A DNA stretch of 64,000 bases. Origin: Deltaproteobacteria bacterium. GTDB lineage: Bacteria > Bdellovibrionota_B > Oligoflexia > Oligoflexales > CAIYRB01. Under the pieces are notes generated by a model that saw only the letters and a list, made by a program, of their open reading frames with translations, was not told the DNA's origin and ran no database searches. Both the position numbers and the translations under genes were made by a program. Shown piece after piece: positions 2-59,513 of this stretch. How positions within the stretch are numbered: position 1 is the first letter of the stretch; each line of letters begins with the position of its first letter. Location: positions 1 through 64,000 of the forward strand of contig VGTI01000009.1 in NCBI GenBank assembly GCA_016874735.1, in the 5' to 3' direction.

Positions 2-3000
2 ACCGGCTCCCCCGACGTGGGTAAGACCTGGTACAACTCCAGCTCTAATCAAATTAAATTCTGGGACGGCACGCAGTCACGATCCCTAGGTGTATCAGGC
101 TCAGGTCTCTCCAGTCTCAACGGCCAGACGGGTAACAGCCAGACCTTTACGGTCACAAGTAGCGGTACAGCACCGGCAATTAACTCAACCGCGAATATCC
201 ATACGCTGAGTATCCCTCTGGCATCGGCTGGTGCCACGGTGACAGCTGGTCTGATCTCTAACACGGATTACCAGGCATTTAGTGGCAAGCAGGCAGCAGG
301 CAGTTATTTAAGCGGACTCACCGGCGACGTCACGGCTGCAGGTCCTGGCAGTGCAGCGGCCACTCTATCCAACACAGGTGTGGCAGCTGGGACGTACACG
401 AAGGTGGTGACGGATGCAAAAGGCCGCGTTTACTTAGGCGCGACACTCTCAGTCAGTGACATCCCGCCGCTACCAGCATCGAGTATCACCAGTGGTGTCC
501 TGCCAGTCAGTAACGGTGGTACAGGGGCTTCAAGTTTCACTAATAACGGTGTGGTACTTGGGAATAGCAGTGGCAATCTTTTGTCCACTGCTGCGGGAGC
601 TGCCCACCAGAGCTTAGTCGTCCCGAGTGGGGGCGGCGTGCCCTCATTTGGAGCTATTGATTTATCGCAGGCGGCGGCTGTGACTGGAGTGCTATCGACT
701 ACGGCCGGTGGTATTGGGATTAGCTCGACGGCAACATTCCCGACCTCTGGTGTGGTGGTGACGCAAAGTGCATCAGAGACATTGAGTAATAAAACTTTGG
801 CCTCGCCCGTTGTGAATGCAGGTACTATGAGTGGTGCATCGCTTATCACCGGCTCTACGGTGGTTAACACGACTGGCACTGTAACTGCGGCTGCCGGCCA
901 ATTTAATGGTGATGTCACGATTAGTGGCAACGGTGTCACTGGCAACAAGCTGGTGATGCACGATAATGGTACGACTAACTTTGTAGCGTTGAGAGCTCCG
1001 GATACATTAGCATCCTCGACCTCCTGGACCTTACCAGCGACTGATGGGACTAGCGGTCAGGCATTGATCACCAATGGCTCCGGAGCTTTATCTTGGGCTT
1101 CGGGTCTCGCACCAACAGGCGTTGCTGGTGGAGACTTGACTGGAAATTTCCCAAATCCCACCCTGACCGCGACTGGCGTAGCAGCTGGGACTTACACTAA
1201 AATCGCGACTGATGCGAAGGGGCGCGTATACTCCGGTGGCGCACTCGCGGTTGCCGATATTCCCTCACTTCCCGCGTCGATTATCGGCTCTGGTATCGTG
1301 CCTGTGAGTAACGGTGGTACCGGAGCCTCTAGCTTTACCAATAACGGCGTCGTATTGGGCAATAGCAGCGGTAATCTTTTGTCCACGGCTGCGGGTGCTG
1401 CGTACCAGAGCTTAGTCGTATCGAGTGGTGGTGGGACGCCGTCGTTTGGAGCGATCAACTTATCGCAAGCAGCGGCTGTGACTGGTGTACTCCCAGCATC
1501 AGCGGGTGGCACGGGTGTAAGCTCGACGGCGACGTTTCCAGCCACTGGTGTGGTGGTGACACAAAGTGCAATGGAGACATTGAGTAATAAGACTTTGGCT
1601 TCGCCCATCGTCAATGCAGGGACTATGAGTGGTGCGTCGCTTATCACCGGCTCGACGGTGGTTAACACGACTGGCACTGTAACTGCGGCTTCCGGCCAGT
1701 TTAATGGCGATGTTACGATCAGTGGTAACGGTGTTACAGGCAACAAACTGGTGATGCACGATAAGGGTACGACTAACTTTGTAGCGTTGAGAGCACCCGA
1801 CACTTTAGCTGCCTCAACCTCGTGGACCTTACCAGCGAGTGACGGGTCTAGCGGTCAGGCTTTGGTTACTAATGGCTCCGGAGCTTTATCTTGGGCTTCG
1901 GGACTAGCACCGACTGGTGCTGCTAGTGGCGACTTAACGGGTAACTTTCCAAATCCCACACTAACAGCGACTGGCGTTGCCTCTGGAACTTACACCAAGG
2001 TCGCTACTGATGCGAAGGGTCGTATCTATTACGGTGGTGCGCTCGCGCTTGCTGATATTCCGTCACTTCCAGCGTCGATTATCGGTTCTGGTATTGTGCC
2101 TGTGGGCAATGGTGGTACCGGAGCGTCTAGCTTCACCAATAACGGCGTCCTCATCGGTAATAGCGGCGGGAATCTTTTATCCACCGCAGCGGGAGCTGCG
2201 TACCAAAGCTTAGTCGTGCCGAGTGGCGGTGGTACGCCAACATTTGGAGCTATTGATTTATCGCAGGCGGCGGCTGTGACTGGCGTGCTCCCGACCTCTG
2301 TCGGTGGCACTGGAGTCGTTTCATCAGCTACTTTTCCGTCGAGTGGAGTCGTAGTAACTCAGAATGCAGTGGAGACGCTGAGTAACAAGACCCTAGCATC
2401 GCCGATCATATCAGCTGCGACGATTAATGGTGCGTCAGTCATTAGCGTCACTGGGCCAATATCCGGTGGTAATGGATATTTTAGTGGAAATGTCGGCATC
2501 GCTACCACGTCACCAGGATCCAAGCTCCAAGTAAACGGGGGAGCTGCTATTGGTTACAGCGCTGCTACTTCGGCGCCATCGAATGGGTTAGTTGTGGCTG
2601 GCAACGTCGGGATTGGGACGACGGCGCCGGTCGCGAAACTTGATGTCACGAATCCGGATACTGGGGGCTACGCTCTTTTGATCGGCTCGGATCAGAATTC
2701 TAATACAAGGACCGATGCATCACGAAAATATTTTCGGGCTGCCATGCCGAGTTATAGCATTGCAAATACCCCTATTGGCGTGCTTATAGGTGACTCTACG
2801 AGTACGGACAATATTTTGAATATTGGCGGCGGATCCACACAGGTCAATGCGATAACCTCGCTGAGATTCTTCACTGGTGCGACAACGAGCACCAACTCAG
2901 GCACCGAGAGAATGAGGATCGATTCCAACGGCAACGTCGGGATTGGCACCACATCGCCTTCAGCTCCTTTGCACATTTATAAGGCTTCAAACTACCCGGA

Positions 3001-4459
3001 AATTTTTGTCGATCGTGGAGCGAGCGGCCAGATAGCAGGTCTGGCTACCAATAGCACTGGTGCCAACCTCAGTTATTCGGGGTATCTGGCTTTGGGAACC
3101 GCAACGGGTGCCCAATTGGCAGGATGGGACGAAAAAGTCAGATTCACCAGCGCCGGAGCAGTGGGCATTGGCACTCACAATCCGAACGCCATGTTACAGT
3201 CTCAGTCGACGGCAACTGACGCGGGGGCCAACGAATCAGGAAATTTCAACACCAACCTTTACGTCAATAACTCAGGAAACTTCAGTGCCTATAACTTAAC
3301 AACAGCCGTGGCGCCGATTGTGGCAAGTGGAGCATCATCGACCGGTACGGTGATTAGCCTCTACCCGCAGGCGAGGCGCACCTCTGCCTCGGATGCCGGA
3401 TCCCTGAGTTCCCTTTATGGAGTTAATGCAATCTACGGACACACGACCTTAACCACAGGCACCACGAATGTGGCGGCGGGGATACGAGTCGTCCCCTATC
3501 ATCAAGGCGGGACGATCAACACTAGCTATGCGCTTTATCTATCAGGTGCTTATGGTGGTGGTTCCGTAGGCAATTACTATGCCGTATACCAGGCAGATAC
3601 CGATGCCAGGAATTATTTTGGGAGCAACGTCGGCATCGCTACCACGTCACCAGGATCCAAGCTCCAAGTAAACGGGGGAGCTGCTATTGGTTACAGCGCT
3701 GCTACTTCGGCGCCATCGAATGGGTTAGTTGTGGCTGGCAACGTCGGCATCGCTACCACGTCACCAGGATCCAAGCTCCAAGTAAACGGGGGAGCTGCTA
3801 TTGGTTACAGCGCTGCTACTTCGGCGCCATCGAATGGGTTAGTTGTGGCTGGCAACGTCGGGATTGGGACAACCTCACCTACTGCTGCTCTAGAAGTCCA
3901 AGACTCCACGATACCATTGCGATTGAGAAATAACGCCAGCACGGCGGGAGCCTATTGGCAGATTGGCCCAAACTCAGGCAACTCCTTATTAGTTTACAAT
4001 CAAAATAATGTTGGTGTGTGGTTGGGCAACGGCGGCAACACATGGTCCTCAACCTCTGATATCAGGCTCAAAAAGAATTTCTCACCCATTTCTGATGCGC
4101 TGGAAAAAACTTTACAGCTCCGTGGGCTTACTTACCAATACAAAACTGATGCCGACACTGACCCGCGCCGGGTCGGAGTCATAGCTCAGGACGTCCAAAG
4201 GGTCTTACCTGAGGCAGTATCGGAGCATGAAGGCATCTTGGGAGTAAAATATACAGAAATCATTCCGATTCTGATTGAAGCGATAAAAGATCTGAAAAAT
4301 AAAATTGATCTAAGGTTTGAAGCAATAGTTACACTTTCAGCAATAAAAGATGCGCAAATCGCAGACCTTCAACGTCGAGCTGAGAATGCTGAAGCCGAAT
4401 CCGCACAGCTTAAGGCGTTCCTATGCAGCCAATTCCCCGATGCGCCGATGTGTCGCTGA
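2..4459 (+). CDS. Tail-fibre-like surface protein with C-terminal S74 chaperone domain (5' partial)
   Basis: The frame is open to the left edge, so the true start lies upstream; the first in-window start is a GTG at 17 (1480 residues from there, used for numbering). The N-terminal two thirds are Gly/Ser/Thr-rich phage-tail-fibre-like repeats (LTGDV, VSNGGTGASSFTNNGV, NVGIGTTSP). The C-terminus is a Peptidase_S74 intramolecular chaperone: TSDIRLKKN, with the likely autocleavage Ser at residue 1347 and a Lys dyad partner just after, then GVIAQDVQ, YTEIIPILIEAIKDL and a short coiled coil. Known members trimerise beta-helical fibres and cut themselves off, and a surface fibre role here is inferred. 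It ends in a typical Cys-containing tail (FPDAPMCR). Internal 798-bp and 114-bp duplications are listed separately. The protein could be prophage-derived, but no other phage genes are visible. Confidence 0.85.
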   Translation, partial: TGSPDVGKTWYNSSSNQIKFWDGTQSRSLGVSGSGLSSLNGQTGNSQTFTVTSSGTAPAINSTANIHTLSIPLASAGATVTAGLISNTDYQAFSGKQAAGSYLSGLTGDVTAAGPGSAAATLSNTGVAAGTYTKVVTDAKGRVYLGATLSVSDIPPLPASSITSGVLPVSNGGTGASSFTNNGVVLGNSSGNLLSTAAGAAHQSLVVPSGGGVPSFGAIDLSQAAAVTGVLSTTAGGIGISSTATFPTSGVVVTQSASETLSNKTLASPVVNAGTMSGASLITGSTVVNTTGTVTAAAGQFNGDVTISGNGVTGNKLVMHDNGTTNFVALRAPDTLASSTSWTLPATDGTSGQALITNGSGALSWASGLAPTGVAGGDLTGNFPNPTLTATGVAAGTYTKIATDAKGRVYSGGALAVADIPSLPASIIGSGIVPVSNGGTGASSFTNNGVVLGNSSGNLLSTAAGAAYQSLVVSSGGGTPSFGAINLSQAAAVTGVLPASAGGTGVSSTATFPATGVVVTQSAMETLSNKTLASPIVNAGTMSGASLITGSTVVNTTGTVTAASGQFNGDVTISGNGVTGNKLVMHDKGTTNFVALRAPDTLAASTSWTLPASDGSSGQALVTNGSGALSWASGLAPTGAASGDLTGNFPNPTLTATGVASGTYTKVATDAKGRIYYGGALALADIPSLPASIIGSGIVPVGNGGTGASSFTNNGVLIGNSGGNLLSTAAGAAYQSLVVPSGGGTPTFGAIDLSQAAAVTGVLPTSVGGTGVVSSATFPSSGVVVTQNAVETLSNKTLASPIISAATINGASVISVTGPISGGNGYFSGNVGIATTSPGSKLQVNGGAAIGYSAATSAPSNGLVVAGNVGIGTTAPVAKLDVTNPDTGGYALLIGSDQNSNTRTDASRKYFRAAMPSYSIANTPIGVLIGDSTSTDNILNIGGGSTQVNAITSLRFFTGATTSTNSGTERMRIDSNGNVGIGTTSPSAPLHIYKASNYPEIFVDRGASGQIAGLATNSTGANLSYSGYLALGTATGAQLAGWDEKVRFTSAGAVGIGTHNPNAMLQSQSTATDAGANESGNFNTNLYVNNSGNFSAYNLTTAVAPIVASGASSTGTVISLYPQARRTSASDAGSLSSLYGVNAIYGHTTLTTGTTNVAAGIRVVPYHQGGTINTSYALYLSGAYGGGSVGNYYAVYQADTDARNYFGSNVGIATTSPGSKLQVNGGAAIGYSAATSAPSNGLVVAGNVGIATTSPGSKLQVNGGAAIGYSAATSAPSNGLVVAGNVGIGTTSPTAALEVQDSTIPLRLRNNASTAGAYWQIGPNSGNSLLVYNQNNVGVWLGNGGNTWSSTSDIRLKKNFSPISDALEKTLQLRGLTYQYKTDADTDPRRVGVIAQDVQRVLPEAVSEHEGILGVKYTEIIPILIEAIKDLKNKIDLRFEAIVTLSAIKDAQIADLQRRAENAEAESAQLKAFLCSQFPDAPMCR
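379..2450 (+). repeat. Tandem 798-bp repeats inside the tail-fibre gene (two full copies and a shorter third)
   Basis: The segment encoding GTYTKVVTDAKGRVY through the NGSGALSWASG region recurs with a period of 798 bp (266 codons). The matching points lie near 379, 1177 and 1975, and a second marker (the VVNTTGTVTAA coding stretch) at 860 and 1658 gives the same period. Copies one and two differ mostly at synonymous positions, so they are older than the perfect 114-bp repeats. The third copy stops around 2450, where the NVGI-type repeats begin. Confidence 0.85.
2492..2610 (+). repeat. Perfect 119-bp repeat, copy 1
   Basis: This stretch encodes VGIATTSPGSKLQVNGG through SNGLVVAGNVG. It is identical base for base to the stretches beginning at 3629 and 3743, which lie more than 1 kb downstream in the same gene. 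Confidence 0.9.
3629..3861 (+). repeat. Perfect repeat, copies 2 and 3 in tandem (period 114 bp)
   Basis: Two further copies of the 2492-2610 unit start at 3629 and 3743, exactly 114 bp (38 codons) apart. They overlap at the NVG-encoding edge. Reading all three by eye shows no mismatch, which suggests recent duplication or gene conversion. Confidence 0.9.
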
Positions 4460-5290: not shown

Positions 5291-6766
5291 GGCGGCAACG
5301 TCGGGATTGGGACCACGAGTCCGAGCCGGGCTCTGCAAGTGGTCGGCCCAGCTCGAACGTTGATTCAAGCGAATACAAACTCTGCCAACGGCACCGCTGG
5401 GTTTGTTGCATACGATGGACCGGACCAGAGCAACGCTGGATATCTCTTACTGGGCATCGATCGTGCTGGCTCTAATGTAAGCGGCCTCGGAACGAGCGAC
5501 TTCGCATTCATTTCATCGTCGAAGAACGGTACTGGTAAGGCATTCCCACTGATCTTCGGCACTGGATCCACCCAGATCGAGCGCATGCGTATCGACACAT
5601 CCGGCAACGTCGGGATTGGGACGACGGCGCCGGCAAGCACACTCGAAGTGACCGGTAACATCATGATGTCACAAGGCGCTAATCGAACGATTAGTGTCGC
5701 AACTACTACGAGCAACACAGCTGGCAACAGTCTAACCATCAGATCGGGTACAGCTCAGCAGAGCGGTGTAAATGGGCAAAACGGTGGATCGCTATACCTT
5801 ACCGGAGGCACCGGCTACGGTGTCACCGCAGCAAACAGTGGTGGCAACGTTTATGCTTATGGCGGCCCTGGCACAGGATCGGCAGCTTCAAACGGCAACG
5901 TGATTCTTGCACATAACGGCACGAGTTCCGTCGGCAACGTCGGGATTGGGACCACATCTCCAGGATCGTTACTAGATGTAGTGGGTGGCGCAATCCGAGG
6001 ATCAGCTGGACTAGTAATCACGGGCAACTCTTTTTTCACTCCGGCAGGAACCCCTAATGGATCTGTGCTTGGACTGAGCTCACCAGGTGGAAATCCAGGA
6101 TTTTCCGTAGTTGAAGGCGATGGTTCCGGCGGTGCTTTGCGAAGATGGGATATCAAAAGCTGGTCTGGCAAGCTCATTATACACGACGCCACTGCAGGCA
6201 TCGGTCGCGCAGTATTTGACACAACCGGCAACGTCGGAATTGGAACAACAAGTCCAGGATCCTCATTACATATCGGTGGTAGTGTTGCTGGCCAACAAGC
6301 TCAAATCAAATTAGATAACGGCATCGACGGTTCGACGGGATACATAAGCCGTTGGATTGGACGCCTTGAGCTTTTGTCCTCAGATGCGATCGGTTTTGCG
6401 ACCAATTCGTATGCAGATACAAAAATGTTGATAACAAATTCTGGCTACGTCGGAATAGGCACCGCATCTCCGCAGCAAGCGTTGCATGTCAATGGCTACA
6501 TTTCCACTGGTGATGCAGGTATAAAGTGGAAAGTATTTACAGGCACTTCAGGAACCAATTCAACCACATTTGCGCACGGAGTTGATTGGCAAAAAATCGT
6601 ATCCGTCTCGTGCTCGATTTACCAAAATGGCATCGGCTATGTTGTATTCGGCTGGGAAGTTAACAACCACTTTATAAGTTACACGTCGACTAACATTAAT
6701 ATCATGCACAGTTGGGACGGCTACGACGGTCAGCCGTACCGCTGCACCTTGTTCCATATTCCGTAA
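5291..6766 (+). pseudogene. 5'-truncated tail-fibre-like gene (NVGIGTTSP repeats)
   Basis: The frame opens straight after a stop at 5279 and begins inside a GGNVGIGTTSP unit, with no start codon and no ribosome-binding site at the junction. The first possible start is a GTG at 5339 with no convincing Shine-Dalgarno. At least five NVGIGTT-type units follow (near 5297, 5605, 5936, 6229 and 6448). The last ~80 residues form a different, non-S74 tail with several aromatics (GVDWQKIVSVSCSIY, GYVVFGWEVNNHF, RCTLFHIP). It resembles a receptor-binding tip and looks intact. I read it as the 3' part of a second fibre gene that lost its 5' part when the toxin-antitoxin cassette came in. Expression from GTG 5339 (475 residues) is possible but would give a protein without any export signal. 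Confidence 0.6.
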
Positions 6767-57389: not shown

Positions 57390-59312
57390 TCACTTGCGGC
57401 GACGCCTTGTCGCGATAACTTTCGCTGCGGTCGGCGTCACGCAGGCTGCTAAAGCCGGGATCATGAGGAGAAGGATTACACCTTCGGCGGTGCCGCCACC
57501 TTGGTGTCCGATGGCACCGCAGCCCCAGTCGATGCCGAAGAATTTACTTTTACTCGATGTCGAACTTTCAGTTTGAGTCGTCTGCGCCACTGTGAGAGTT
57601 GAGCCAGTGCCAGTCAGCTGCGGTATGTTGTCGCATCCGATCCCTGCGTCGGCAATGAAGCTGTCAAACTTTCGGCGGCTAATGGATTGGCGGATTACCG
57701 TATCAAACTGGCAGTTGAAGATATTCTTGTCAGCGGTAAGCAGTGACAACAGTAAATCGCGTATGCCGCTATCTCCCTTGAAATATGTGATAGCAGTCAT
57801 AGTCAGGTTTGCGGCATCGCTGGCGCTCATTTGATTATTTTTCACGAGATCCCAAACTATCGCACTGATGACCTGGCCATGCTTGTGACCGCAGCAGCGA
57901 CTGGGGAAGGGCTGTCCAGACGACCATTTCTGCCACTCGGGACCGTCGAAAGTCCAGTCGTGATCACCCGTGCGCAAGCACGTGGACTTTACGCAGTAGG
58001 GAGAGTTCGCGGGACAAATGGACTCGCCGAGGCAGGCCGCTTGTTTGCTGCCCTTGATACTTTTGTGGAGATAGACCAAGAGATCGGCGATACCCTCGTG
58101 TAAACCCAGTGGCTCGTCTTTCGTCACTTTTAAATAGTTATAAACGAAGTAGTGACCGGCCTCATGCGACGGCACGTCCCAATCAGTTGCAAGATTTTGC
58201 AGTCCTACGCCGTCGCCGTCCCCAAGTTCGATGATGAACGGATCGCTAGTATCGTCACTTCCCGGAATAAATAATGCGTTATTAGTCGTCCCATTCACGA
58301 CCTGGTGCAGCTCCAAATGCAAGGGTAGTGCACCGTAAGTTTTTCCACCGAGTCCCAGCATCCAGCGAAAGTGTTCGTCTGTATGGGCGTAGGCATTGGT
58401 CTGATCAAACCTACGATCGTTTCGTGAGTAAATAAAGCGGTGCGTTGATTCTTTGGCCTGTATCATCGAAGCCGGGACGCGCGCCTGAAGGTAGTTACTG
58501 GTTAGGGTGCCGTCTCCGGTAAGGTCCTTTAGTTTATATTCAGTCACCGTGGCATCAAATGCGTTCTGCGGAAGCACATTTGCAACGCCCTCGACCTCAA
58601 AAAATCTGCGAGAAAAGCTGATAACATCGCGATCATCGGCGAGTACTTCGTATGGTAATCCGTCCACTTTAGCGATCATCAGCCAAGCGGGGCGCAGGGC
58701 TGCTGCAGAGGACGCGTGGTAATACCGCTTTGGTGCAGTGAATTCTAGGTTTGCTGTATTCATGCCCTGCGCGGCAACACCCTGGCGGACCACAGCTTGC
58801 GTAGTTTCCCAATTTGGCCATGTAGACGGGGCATTTTGAACCGCCTCGTTACTGACGGAAGGTAGCGTTCCGAGAATAAACGGTGACCTATCATTGAGCA
58901 AATGGGCCGCTAAATAGGTTCCGTAGATGGGAATGCCGCGCGCCGTAAAGCTACCGTCGAAGCGCCTGCTTGCTCCATTCAGCTGCGGCAGCCCTGATTC
59001 TTTAATTTCGAATTGGAGATTGGTGGGCAGCTGTTCCGCCACCATTGACTTAATAGCTTCGGTAAAATTGATTTGGCCCGTTGCGAAAAGGTTCAAACCC
59101 CTTTTGAATGCCGCAATGCTAAATGGATGAACCGTGAGGTTGGCAGTGGCCTGAGATAGCTGAATCAGCGGGAAGGGCAGCTGGCCCGTCAGGCCAGAGG
59201 GTGTTCCTGGTTCCAGCTCGTCGCCACATCCAGCTGCGCCCAAAAAAATCCCGACGGCCGTCAGTATTTTGAAGGACCGATGCAGCAAGCGACTTTTGTT
59301 ACGAACGACCAC
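57390..59312 (-). CDS. Gluzincin-type metalloprotease lipoprotein with C-terminal sorting-like tail
   Basis: This is a 640-residue protein. Start is GTG 59312, chosen because AAAGGAG lies just upstream and the product then opens with a normal lipoprotein signal (SFKILTAVGIFLGAAGC); the frame extends 30 codons further up without support. Zinc site: H383-E-A-G-H387 in VPSHEAGHYF, with third ligand E406 in GLHEGIAD, the spacing of thermolysin/fungalysin-like gluzincins. A Cys-rich insert follows (CLGESICPANSPYCVKSTC). C-terminus: DWGCGAIGHQGGG, a hydrophobic helix (GVILLLMIPALAACV) and ATRRRRK, the Cys/TM/Arg layout of MYXO-CTERM or GlyGly-CTERM sorting signals. A secreted or surface-attached protease is inferred. 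Confidence 0.8.
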   Translation of the reverse strand: MVVRNKSRLLHRSFKILTAVGIFLGAAGCGDELEPGTPSGLTGQLPFPLIQLSQATANLTVHPFSIAAFKRGLNLFATGQINFTEAIKSMVAEQLPTNLQFEIKESGLPQLNGASRRFDGSFTARGIPIYGTYLAAHLLNDRSPFILGTLPSVSNEAVQNAPSTWPNWETTQAVVRQGVAAQGMNTANLEFTAPKRYYHASSAAALRPAWLMIAKVDGLPYEVLADDRDVISFSRRFFEVEGVANVLPQNAFDATVTEYKLKDLTGDGTLTSNYLQARVPASMIQAKESTHRFIYSRNDRRFDQTNAYAHTDEHFRWMLGLGGKTYGALPLHLELHQVVNGTTNNALFIPGSDDTSDPFIIELGDGDGVGLQNLATDWDVPSHEAGHYFVYNYLKVTKDEPLGLHEGIADLLVYLHKSIKGSKQAACLGESICPANSPYCVKSTCLRTGDHDWTFDGPEWQKWSSGQPFPSRCCGHKHGQVISAIVWDLVKNNQMSASDAANLTMTAITYFKGDSGIRDLLLSLLTADKNIFNCQFDTVIRQSISRRKFDSFIADAGIGCDNIPQLTGTGSTLTVAQTTQTESSTSSKSKFFGIDWGCGAIGHQGGGTAEGVILLLMIPALAACVTPTAAKVIATRRRRK

Positions 59313-59513
59313 TACGCTCCTTTCGGGAGATCCAAGCCGGCTCTCCTGATCTGACGGCGTATCGGCAAAATTGACCCAGGAGTTTAGGAGCGATGGTCGC
59401 AATCTTTAAAAAACATCCTGAGATTAGGATGTTGCGATTGCGCTGGCCATTCTTAGCGAGACCGGCCATAGTGGGTAAAATGTTCCCATATCGATGGTAG
59501 AGGTGGAGGGGCT

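Follow-up and report, generated by a model that had tools for sequence, protein, structure and literature searches.

Why should a single secreted protease carry an anchoring signal at each of its two ends? The question is raised by a minus-strand gene in the window, the whole stretch of 64,000 nt that was analysed, in which no Rfam match was found anywhere. The features of the locus, each with the evidence on which it rests, are as follows.

57390..59312, minus strand: gene for an M4-type zinc metalloprotease with a lipobox and a Cys-type C-terminal sorting tail, GTG start (ORF list, aureolysin profile match, Foldseek)
59317..59322, minus strand: Shine-Dalgarno-like AAGGAG, 4 nt upstream of the GTG at 59312-59310 (read from the sequence)
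59226..59312, minus strand: lipoprotein signal peptide ending in the lipobox AAG/C (sequence, rule-based match, signal helix 39-55 in the AlphaFold2 model)
58575..59162, minus strand: N-terminal propeptide-like domain, about residues 81-276, bounds approximate (Foldseek on the AlphaFold2 model)
57618..58544, minus strand: catalytic domain, about residues 287-595, bounds approximate (PDB profile, Foldseek, Pfam M4 in homologues)
58152..58166, minus strand: HEAGH zinc motif, H413, E414 and H417 (invariant alignment columns)
57507..57524, minus strand: sorting signature GCGAIG, Cys codon 57519-57521; the Cys is invariant in 26 of 26 homologues and in 48 of 48 tails of several families
57423..57488, minus strand: transmembrane helix with an invariant Pro, P649 (alignments, AlphaFold2 model)
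57393..57413, minus strand: basic C-terminus ATRRRRK (sequence)

Where does the protein begin? In its TTG-start form the reading frame spans 57390-59402 on the minus strand, but the GTG is the better start because AAGGAG sits 4 nt before it. Read from the GTG, the N-terminus is (V)VVRNKSRLLHRSFKILTAVGIFLGAAG followed by CGDE, with a basic n-region, a hydrophobic core and the lipobox AAGC, the Cys of which (codon 59226-59228) is residue 29 in the GTG form and residue 59 in the TTG form. The lipoprotein-type signal reads VVVRNKSRLLHRSFKILTAVGIFLGAAG up to CGDE, and the signal peptide, lipobox and Cys that define a bacterial lipoprotein are all found, both in the sequence and by a rule-based match. 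The sequence-only reading had held that the GTG start reveals a lipoprotein signal, and AAG/C indeed follows a basic and hydrophobic stretch. A lipobox-like start is also seen at 23843-44044 of the window (minus strand), in an ORF of 6733 residues with many similar repeats (xxYKLV..xxCD..LTYG..P type) that looks like a giant surface protein. Other repeat-rich proteins, with GIGTTSP repeats, are encoded at 17-4459 and 5339-6766 (plus strand), the former ending, by eye, in a peptidase-S74-like chaperone region (DIRLKKNFSPI...).

What kind of protease is it? The window protein is an M4 protease of the thermolysin/aureolysin type. A profile of 26 homologues matches aureolysin (1bqb) in the PDB at E 6.6e-13, and an AlphaFold2 model (mean pLDDT 81) is matched by Foldseek to aureolysin and thermolysin. 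The Pfam M4 family (PF01447) remains below its cut-off for the window protein itself (14.3 bits vs 22.4, E 0.058); it matches 26/26 homologues at E<=10, the best at 1.1e-8. E436, D440 and H506 are invariant among the homologues, as are the residues of the zinc motif, so that HEXXH, the downstream Glu, the catalytic His and a thermolysin-type fold are found by alignment, PDB profile and predicted structure. From N to C, the model predicts the lipobox, the propeptide-like domain, the catalytic domain, a disordered linker (599-637) and a helix (639-669). The N-terminal domain resembles the separate propeptide chain of the autoprocessed vibriolysin MCP-02 (Foldseek; 3nqz_A, E 5.6e-4, and 3nqy_A, matches in the range of E about 6e-4 to 7e-4 with TM 0.56-0.59) and also matches the propeptide chain of fungalysin (4k90_B). 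The genome encodes a paralogue (L075:1373-3034, contig C25) which has a lipobox and no sorting tail.

The C-terminus of the window protease is SSKSKFFGIDWGCGAIGHQGGGTAEGVILLLMIPALAACVTPTAAKVIATRRRRK, ending in FFGIDWGCGAIGHQGGG, then a hydrophobic helix and then AAKVIATRRRRK. It had been read as GCGAI, a transmembrane helix and ATRRRRK, all of which are present, giving a tripartite build of Cys signature, helix and Arg-rich end. In the AlphaFold2 model the tail Cys, residue 628, lies inside the disordered linker and a single long helix follows. Among the 26 homologues the Cys and the helix Pro are both invariant and the remaining tail drifts; the Pro is kept in >90% of 48 tails of several families. 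Judged from the aligned sequences, the tail consensus is an S/K-rich linker, GCGxIG, about 10 residues, a transmembrane helix with Pro, and RR/K. How can such a drifting tail be traced? Profiles were needed because BLAST with the lone window tail returned only itself and one chance match. Profile A2, trained on M4 tails, could favour M4 proteins, and A3 and a non-M4 model were built to lessen this circularity. The non-M4 model, an HMM from 64 tails, was run over 420 ORFs of the window and places the C-terminus of the protease first, with E 0.0028 (Z=4500) against 0.4 for the runner-up. At E<=0.01 it recovers 22/35 M4-group tails and 0/700 shuffled ones.

By profile searches, 99 ORFs in eight sequence groups bear the tail, among which M4-like, S8, M10 and S1 (Trypsin_2) proteases, VWA-like proteins and others were recognised. 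A search of the window genome for tail-bearing proteins gave three, the window M4 protease and two more, an S8 subtilase (L074, contig C5) and an M10 matrixin (L279, contig C37). Within the class, 40/52 genomes have the tail at E<=0.01, and among the 52 no tail was found in seven members of the genus f12 g25; the phylum-wide search covered the same 52 genomes. We found no literature on CTERM tails for Bdellovibrio or Oligoflexus. The explanation that we favour, and consider probable, is that the tail serves generally as a C-terminal signal for sorting, by which secreted proteases and other proteins would be fixed to the envelope in the manner of MYXO-CTERM. Among the observations that count against it, the tail-positive genomes are mostly drafts, and the basic cluster, kept by the other tailed families of the order, is absent from S8 tails of the window genus, which stop right past the helix (L074:663-2462, L287, L288, L289, L098, L304).

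Is the tail a sorting signal, or does it simply hold the protein in the membrane? It might be a plain, uncleaved C-terminal anchor, a stop-transfer helix tethering the proteases to the inner membrane, with some other use for the Cys, e.g., in a disulfide. Cleavage is something that we infer here, the model gives one single long helix, no curated sorting model matches the tail, and one genome (G031) has the tail with no CPBP match. Such an anchor, however, leaves unexplained why the Cys before the helix is invariant across several unrelated groups, and it is further challenged by the most surprising feature of the tail family, the internal tails. In seven genomes belonging to three genera, a tail lies within a longer chain; behind it come a stretch resembling a signal peptide, or a lipobox, and then a second domain. 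An S1-type ORF runs past its tail in this way in five members of the window genus (L293, L294, L295, L296, L323); in L297 (G006) the second part looks by eye like an outer-membrane protein; and in L298 (G048) the internal tail is followed by a second lipobox, LPLIGGC. In G014 (35% identity, E 2e-13) and G022 (E down to 4e-8), the domain that closes the S1 fusions is encoded by an ORF of its own, which immediately follows a stand-alone tailed S1 protease. The second domain of L297 likewise has its own ORF in five f12 genomes (E 1e-10 to 1e-6), each time next after a tailed protein. A split counterpart is therefore at hand for two of the three fusion types, L298 being without one in the genomes examined, and fusion across the tail arose at least twice, since the second domains of the S1 fusions and of L297 each have such counterparts. 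Because a fresh signal peptide follows the internal tail and the second domain is a separate gene elsewhere, the chain is probably cut at the tail; the simplest reading of these sequences is that a fused chain is probably cut both at the tail and at the next signal peptide. A plain anchor, which leaves this arrangement unexplained as well, we regard as unlikely.

The favoured sorting mechanism can be outlined as follows. In Oligoflexales and some related bacteria the tail would serve secreted proteins, proteases among them. Once such a protein has been exported by Sec, its helix would keep it in the inner membrane, the C-terminal end facing the cytoplasm; a lipid would probably be attached to the conserved Cys, next to which a CPBP/Rce1-fold intramembrane protease would cut, leaving a C-terminal lipid anchor, by which the protein may come to be held at the surface. 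In gene fusions, the internal tail and the next signal peptide would allow the precursor to be cut into two secreted proteins. A bolder form of this proposal, for which we claim somewhat less than an even chance, is that Oligoflexales and their sister families possess an undescribed sorting system with a GCGxIG tail and its own CPBP sorting protease, which may also work in mid-chain, so that cuts at the internal tail and at the signal peptide beside it would turn a fused polyprotein into two proteins, secreted or at the surface.

Which enzyme might process the tail? The earlier suggestion of searching the genome for a CPBP-family myxosortase or a rhombosortase was answered in part: three CPBP proteins exceed the PF02517 cut-off, none of them reaches a Mrt cut-off, and no rhombosortase scores above its own. 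With two further tails and three CPBP proteins, the genome holds both other bearers of the tail and potential enzymes. In a CPBP tree two order-wide groups, N and M, include proteins of the window genome (L002 and L001, respectively). Both groups keep invariant E, E, R, H, H and N (EExxxR, a conserved His and an HxxxN core), the residues expected of CPBP (Rce1-like) glutamic intramembrane proteases. No CPBP protein scanned reaches any myxosortase cut-off, the three of the window genome all lying below those of MrtX, MrtC, MrtP and Mrt_core. Besides an ABC-permease-fused CPBP model, the sorting-protease models nearest to groups N and M are MrtJ and MrtS, all far below cut-offs: the members from the window genome score about 29-36 bits against MrtS and MrtJ, the cut-offs of which are 130 and 75 bits.

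Do these genes occur together with the tail? At class level, 36 genomes have both group N (with its f12 relatives) and the tail at E<=0.01, 4 the tail only, 2 the gene only and 10 neither (Fisher p 3.5e-6, in a test that ignores shared ancestry); at a stricter tail threshold group M fits slightly better than group N by the same kind of test, again ignoring ancestry. Group N is the sole CPBP found in G009 (7 contigs, several tails) and is absent from G016, G039, G031 and G034. Group M is absent from all tailed f12 genomes and from G009, G010, G015 and G017. The whole G031 genome gives no CPBP match, and yet its M4 protease (contig C21) keeps the tripartite tail. Over the window and 0.84 Mb of further loci, no tail gene has a group N or M gene in its neighbourhood. 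Because neither group fits fully and shared ancestry is uncorrected, we name group N as the first candidate enzyme and group M as the second, and claim neither.

Could a rhomboid protease cut the tail instead of a CPBP enzyme, as rhombosortase does for GlyGly-CTERM? Four rhomboid-type matches are present in the window genome, two tails weakly resemble GlyGly-CTERM (best E 0.0037), and GlyGly-CTERM likewise tags secreted proteases (PMC13393428). The best score against the rhombosortase model (TIGR03902) in the window genome is nevertheless 51.7 bits vs a cut-off of 84, the same model gives below-cut-off matches in 14/14 control genomes too, and the conserved residue is a Cys, as in the CPBP-processed MYXO-CTERM. 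A rhomboid enzyme is thus decidedly unlikely, and a CPBP enzyme remains the preferred candidate.

How, then, are the two anchors of the window protease to be understood? The sequence-only reading regarded them as unusual and as a possible means of regulated release, neither of which is borne out. A strict rule finds the lipobox in 18/26 tailed S8 proteins, with further members having one by eye, in 8/8 S1, in 6/35 of the M4 group and in 0/22 M10, so that the combination is common in the tailed S8 and S1 proteases of the order, and lipobox and tail are independent features. For regulated release, the protein would be held by both anchors and shed by cutting one. Both signals do lie on one ORF and their combination recurs in the S8 and S1 families, but no regulatory element or shedding site was found, the rule applied here detects no lipobox in 29/35 tailed members of the M4 group, and the domain bearing the lipobox resembles a propeptide of the kind normally cut off in M4 maturation. 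We consider this possibility very remote. M4 propeptides are normally removed by autoprocessing, and the matched MCP-02 structures are autoprocessed complexes. As each signal is borne by a different domain, the two anchors of the window protease probably end on separate chains: the lipobox would anchor the M4 propeptide and the tail the catalytic domain, and, to go by the predicted domain order, the mature enzyme would after autoprocessing rely on its C-terminal anchor alone. This split provides a simple answer to why one protease is anchored at each end. It may extend to S8, in which the catalytic domain begins about 220-270 residues in, despite the lack of a Pfam propeptide family (I9) match in the S8 members over the long stretch between lipobox and catalytic domain; it hardly applies to the S1 proteases, which leave little room for a propeptide.

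Sorting tails of the Cys type, like the CPBP sorting proteases, came to be known only in recent years, from Myxococcota and a small number of other groups. One more such tail, in a different phylum and on several unrelated protease families, would widen the class of Cys-type tails and add two candidate enzymes. In addition, the gene pairs that occur in nature both split and fused allow one to test whether a sorting tail is processed inside a chain, something of which no description was found in the literature searched.

How does the locus compare with known systems? Like aureolysin, thermolysin and vibriolysin MCP-02, the window protease has a propeptide and a catalytic domain with HEXXH, the downstream Glu and the catalytic His; unlike them, it belongs to a subfamily of its own, with the sorting tail and, in some members, a lipobox. 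It shares an N-terminal lipid anchor on a secreted protein with the surface lipoproteins PulA and InvL, for which the parts of the sources that we consulted describe no C-terminal sorting tail. The tail had been likened to signals processed by myxosortase or rhombosortase; a tail family of the sorting type is borne out, while the window tail stays below the cut-off of every NCBIfam MYXO-, GlyGly-, Synerg- and JDVT-CTERM model and, as described above, no candidate enzyme exceeds a myxosortase or rhombosortase cut-off. The best matches to curated models are GlyGly-CTERM at 0.0037, Synerg-CTERM at 0.026 and MYXO-CTERM at 0.052-0.06, each in a few of 48 tails. With GlyGly-CTERM/rhombosortase it has in common a plug-in C-terminal tag on secreted proteases, and differs in having Cys instead of Gly-Gly and in a genome with no rhombosortase over cut-off. 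Synerg-CTERM (TIGR04564)/MrtS and JDVT-CTERM (NF033191)/MrtJ are likewise Cys-type tails, and MrtS and MrtJ are among the models nearest groups N and M; the tails here match them weakly (best E 0.026 and 0.081) and the enzymes are far below cut-offs. In MYXO-CTERM, served by the myxosortases MrtX, MrtC and MrtP, the CPBP enzyme is known for Myxococcus xanthus, in which a tail likewise built in three parts, and dependent on its Cys, is cut by MrtX (PMC11980579). Two MYXO-CTERM matches in the window genome (L004, L005) were rejected as not being C-terminal tails, the best in that genome, elsewhere, scoring 15.7 bits vs 20; TIGR03901 and TIGR03382 give no match to the window protein at E<=10, and its homologues are matched weakly. 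The tail here differs from MYXO-CTERM in its GCGxIG and conserved helix Pro, its sub-cut-off scores, its phylum, its lipobox and internal forms, and in that no CPBP protein scanned in this analysis reaches the Mrt cut-offs. Like MYXO-CTERM, it combines a short signature holding a Cys with a transmembrane helix and an Arg-rich end, and it occurs on secreted proteins that have signal peptides, some of them proteases. It is, though no scored member of any curated family, a real and recurrent Cys-type sorting tail, probably MYXO-CTERM-like in its working.
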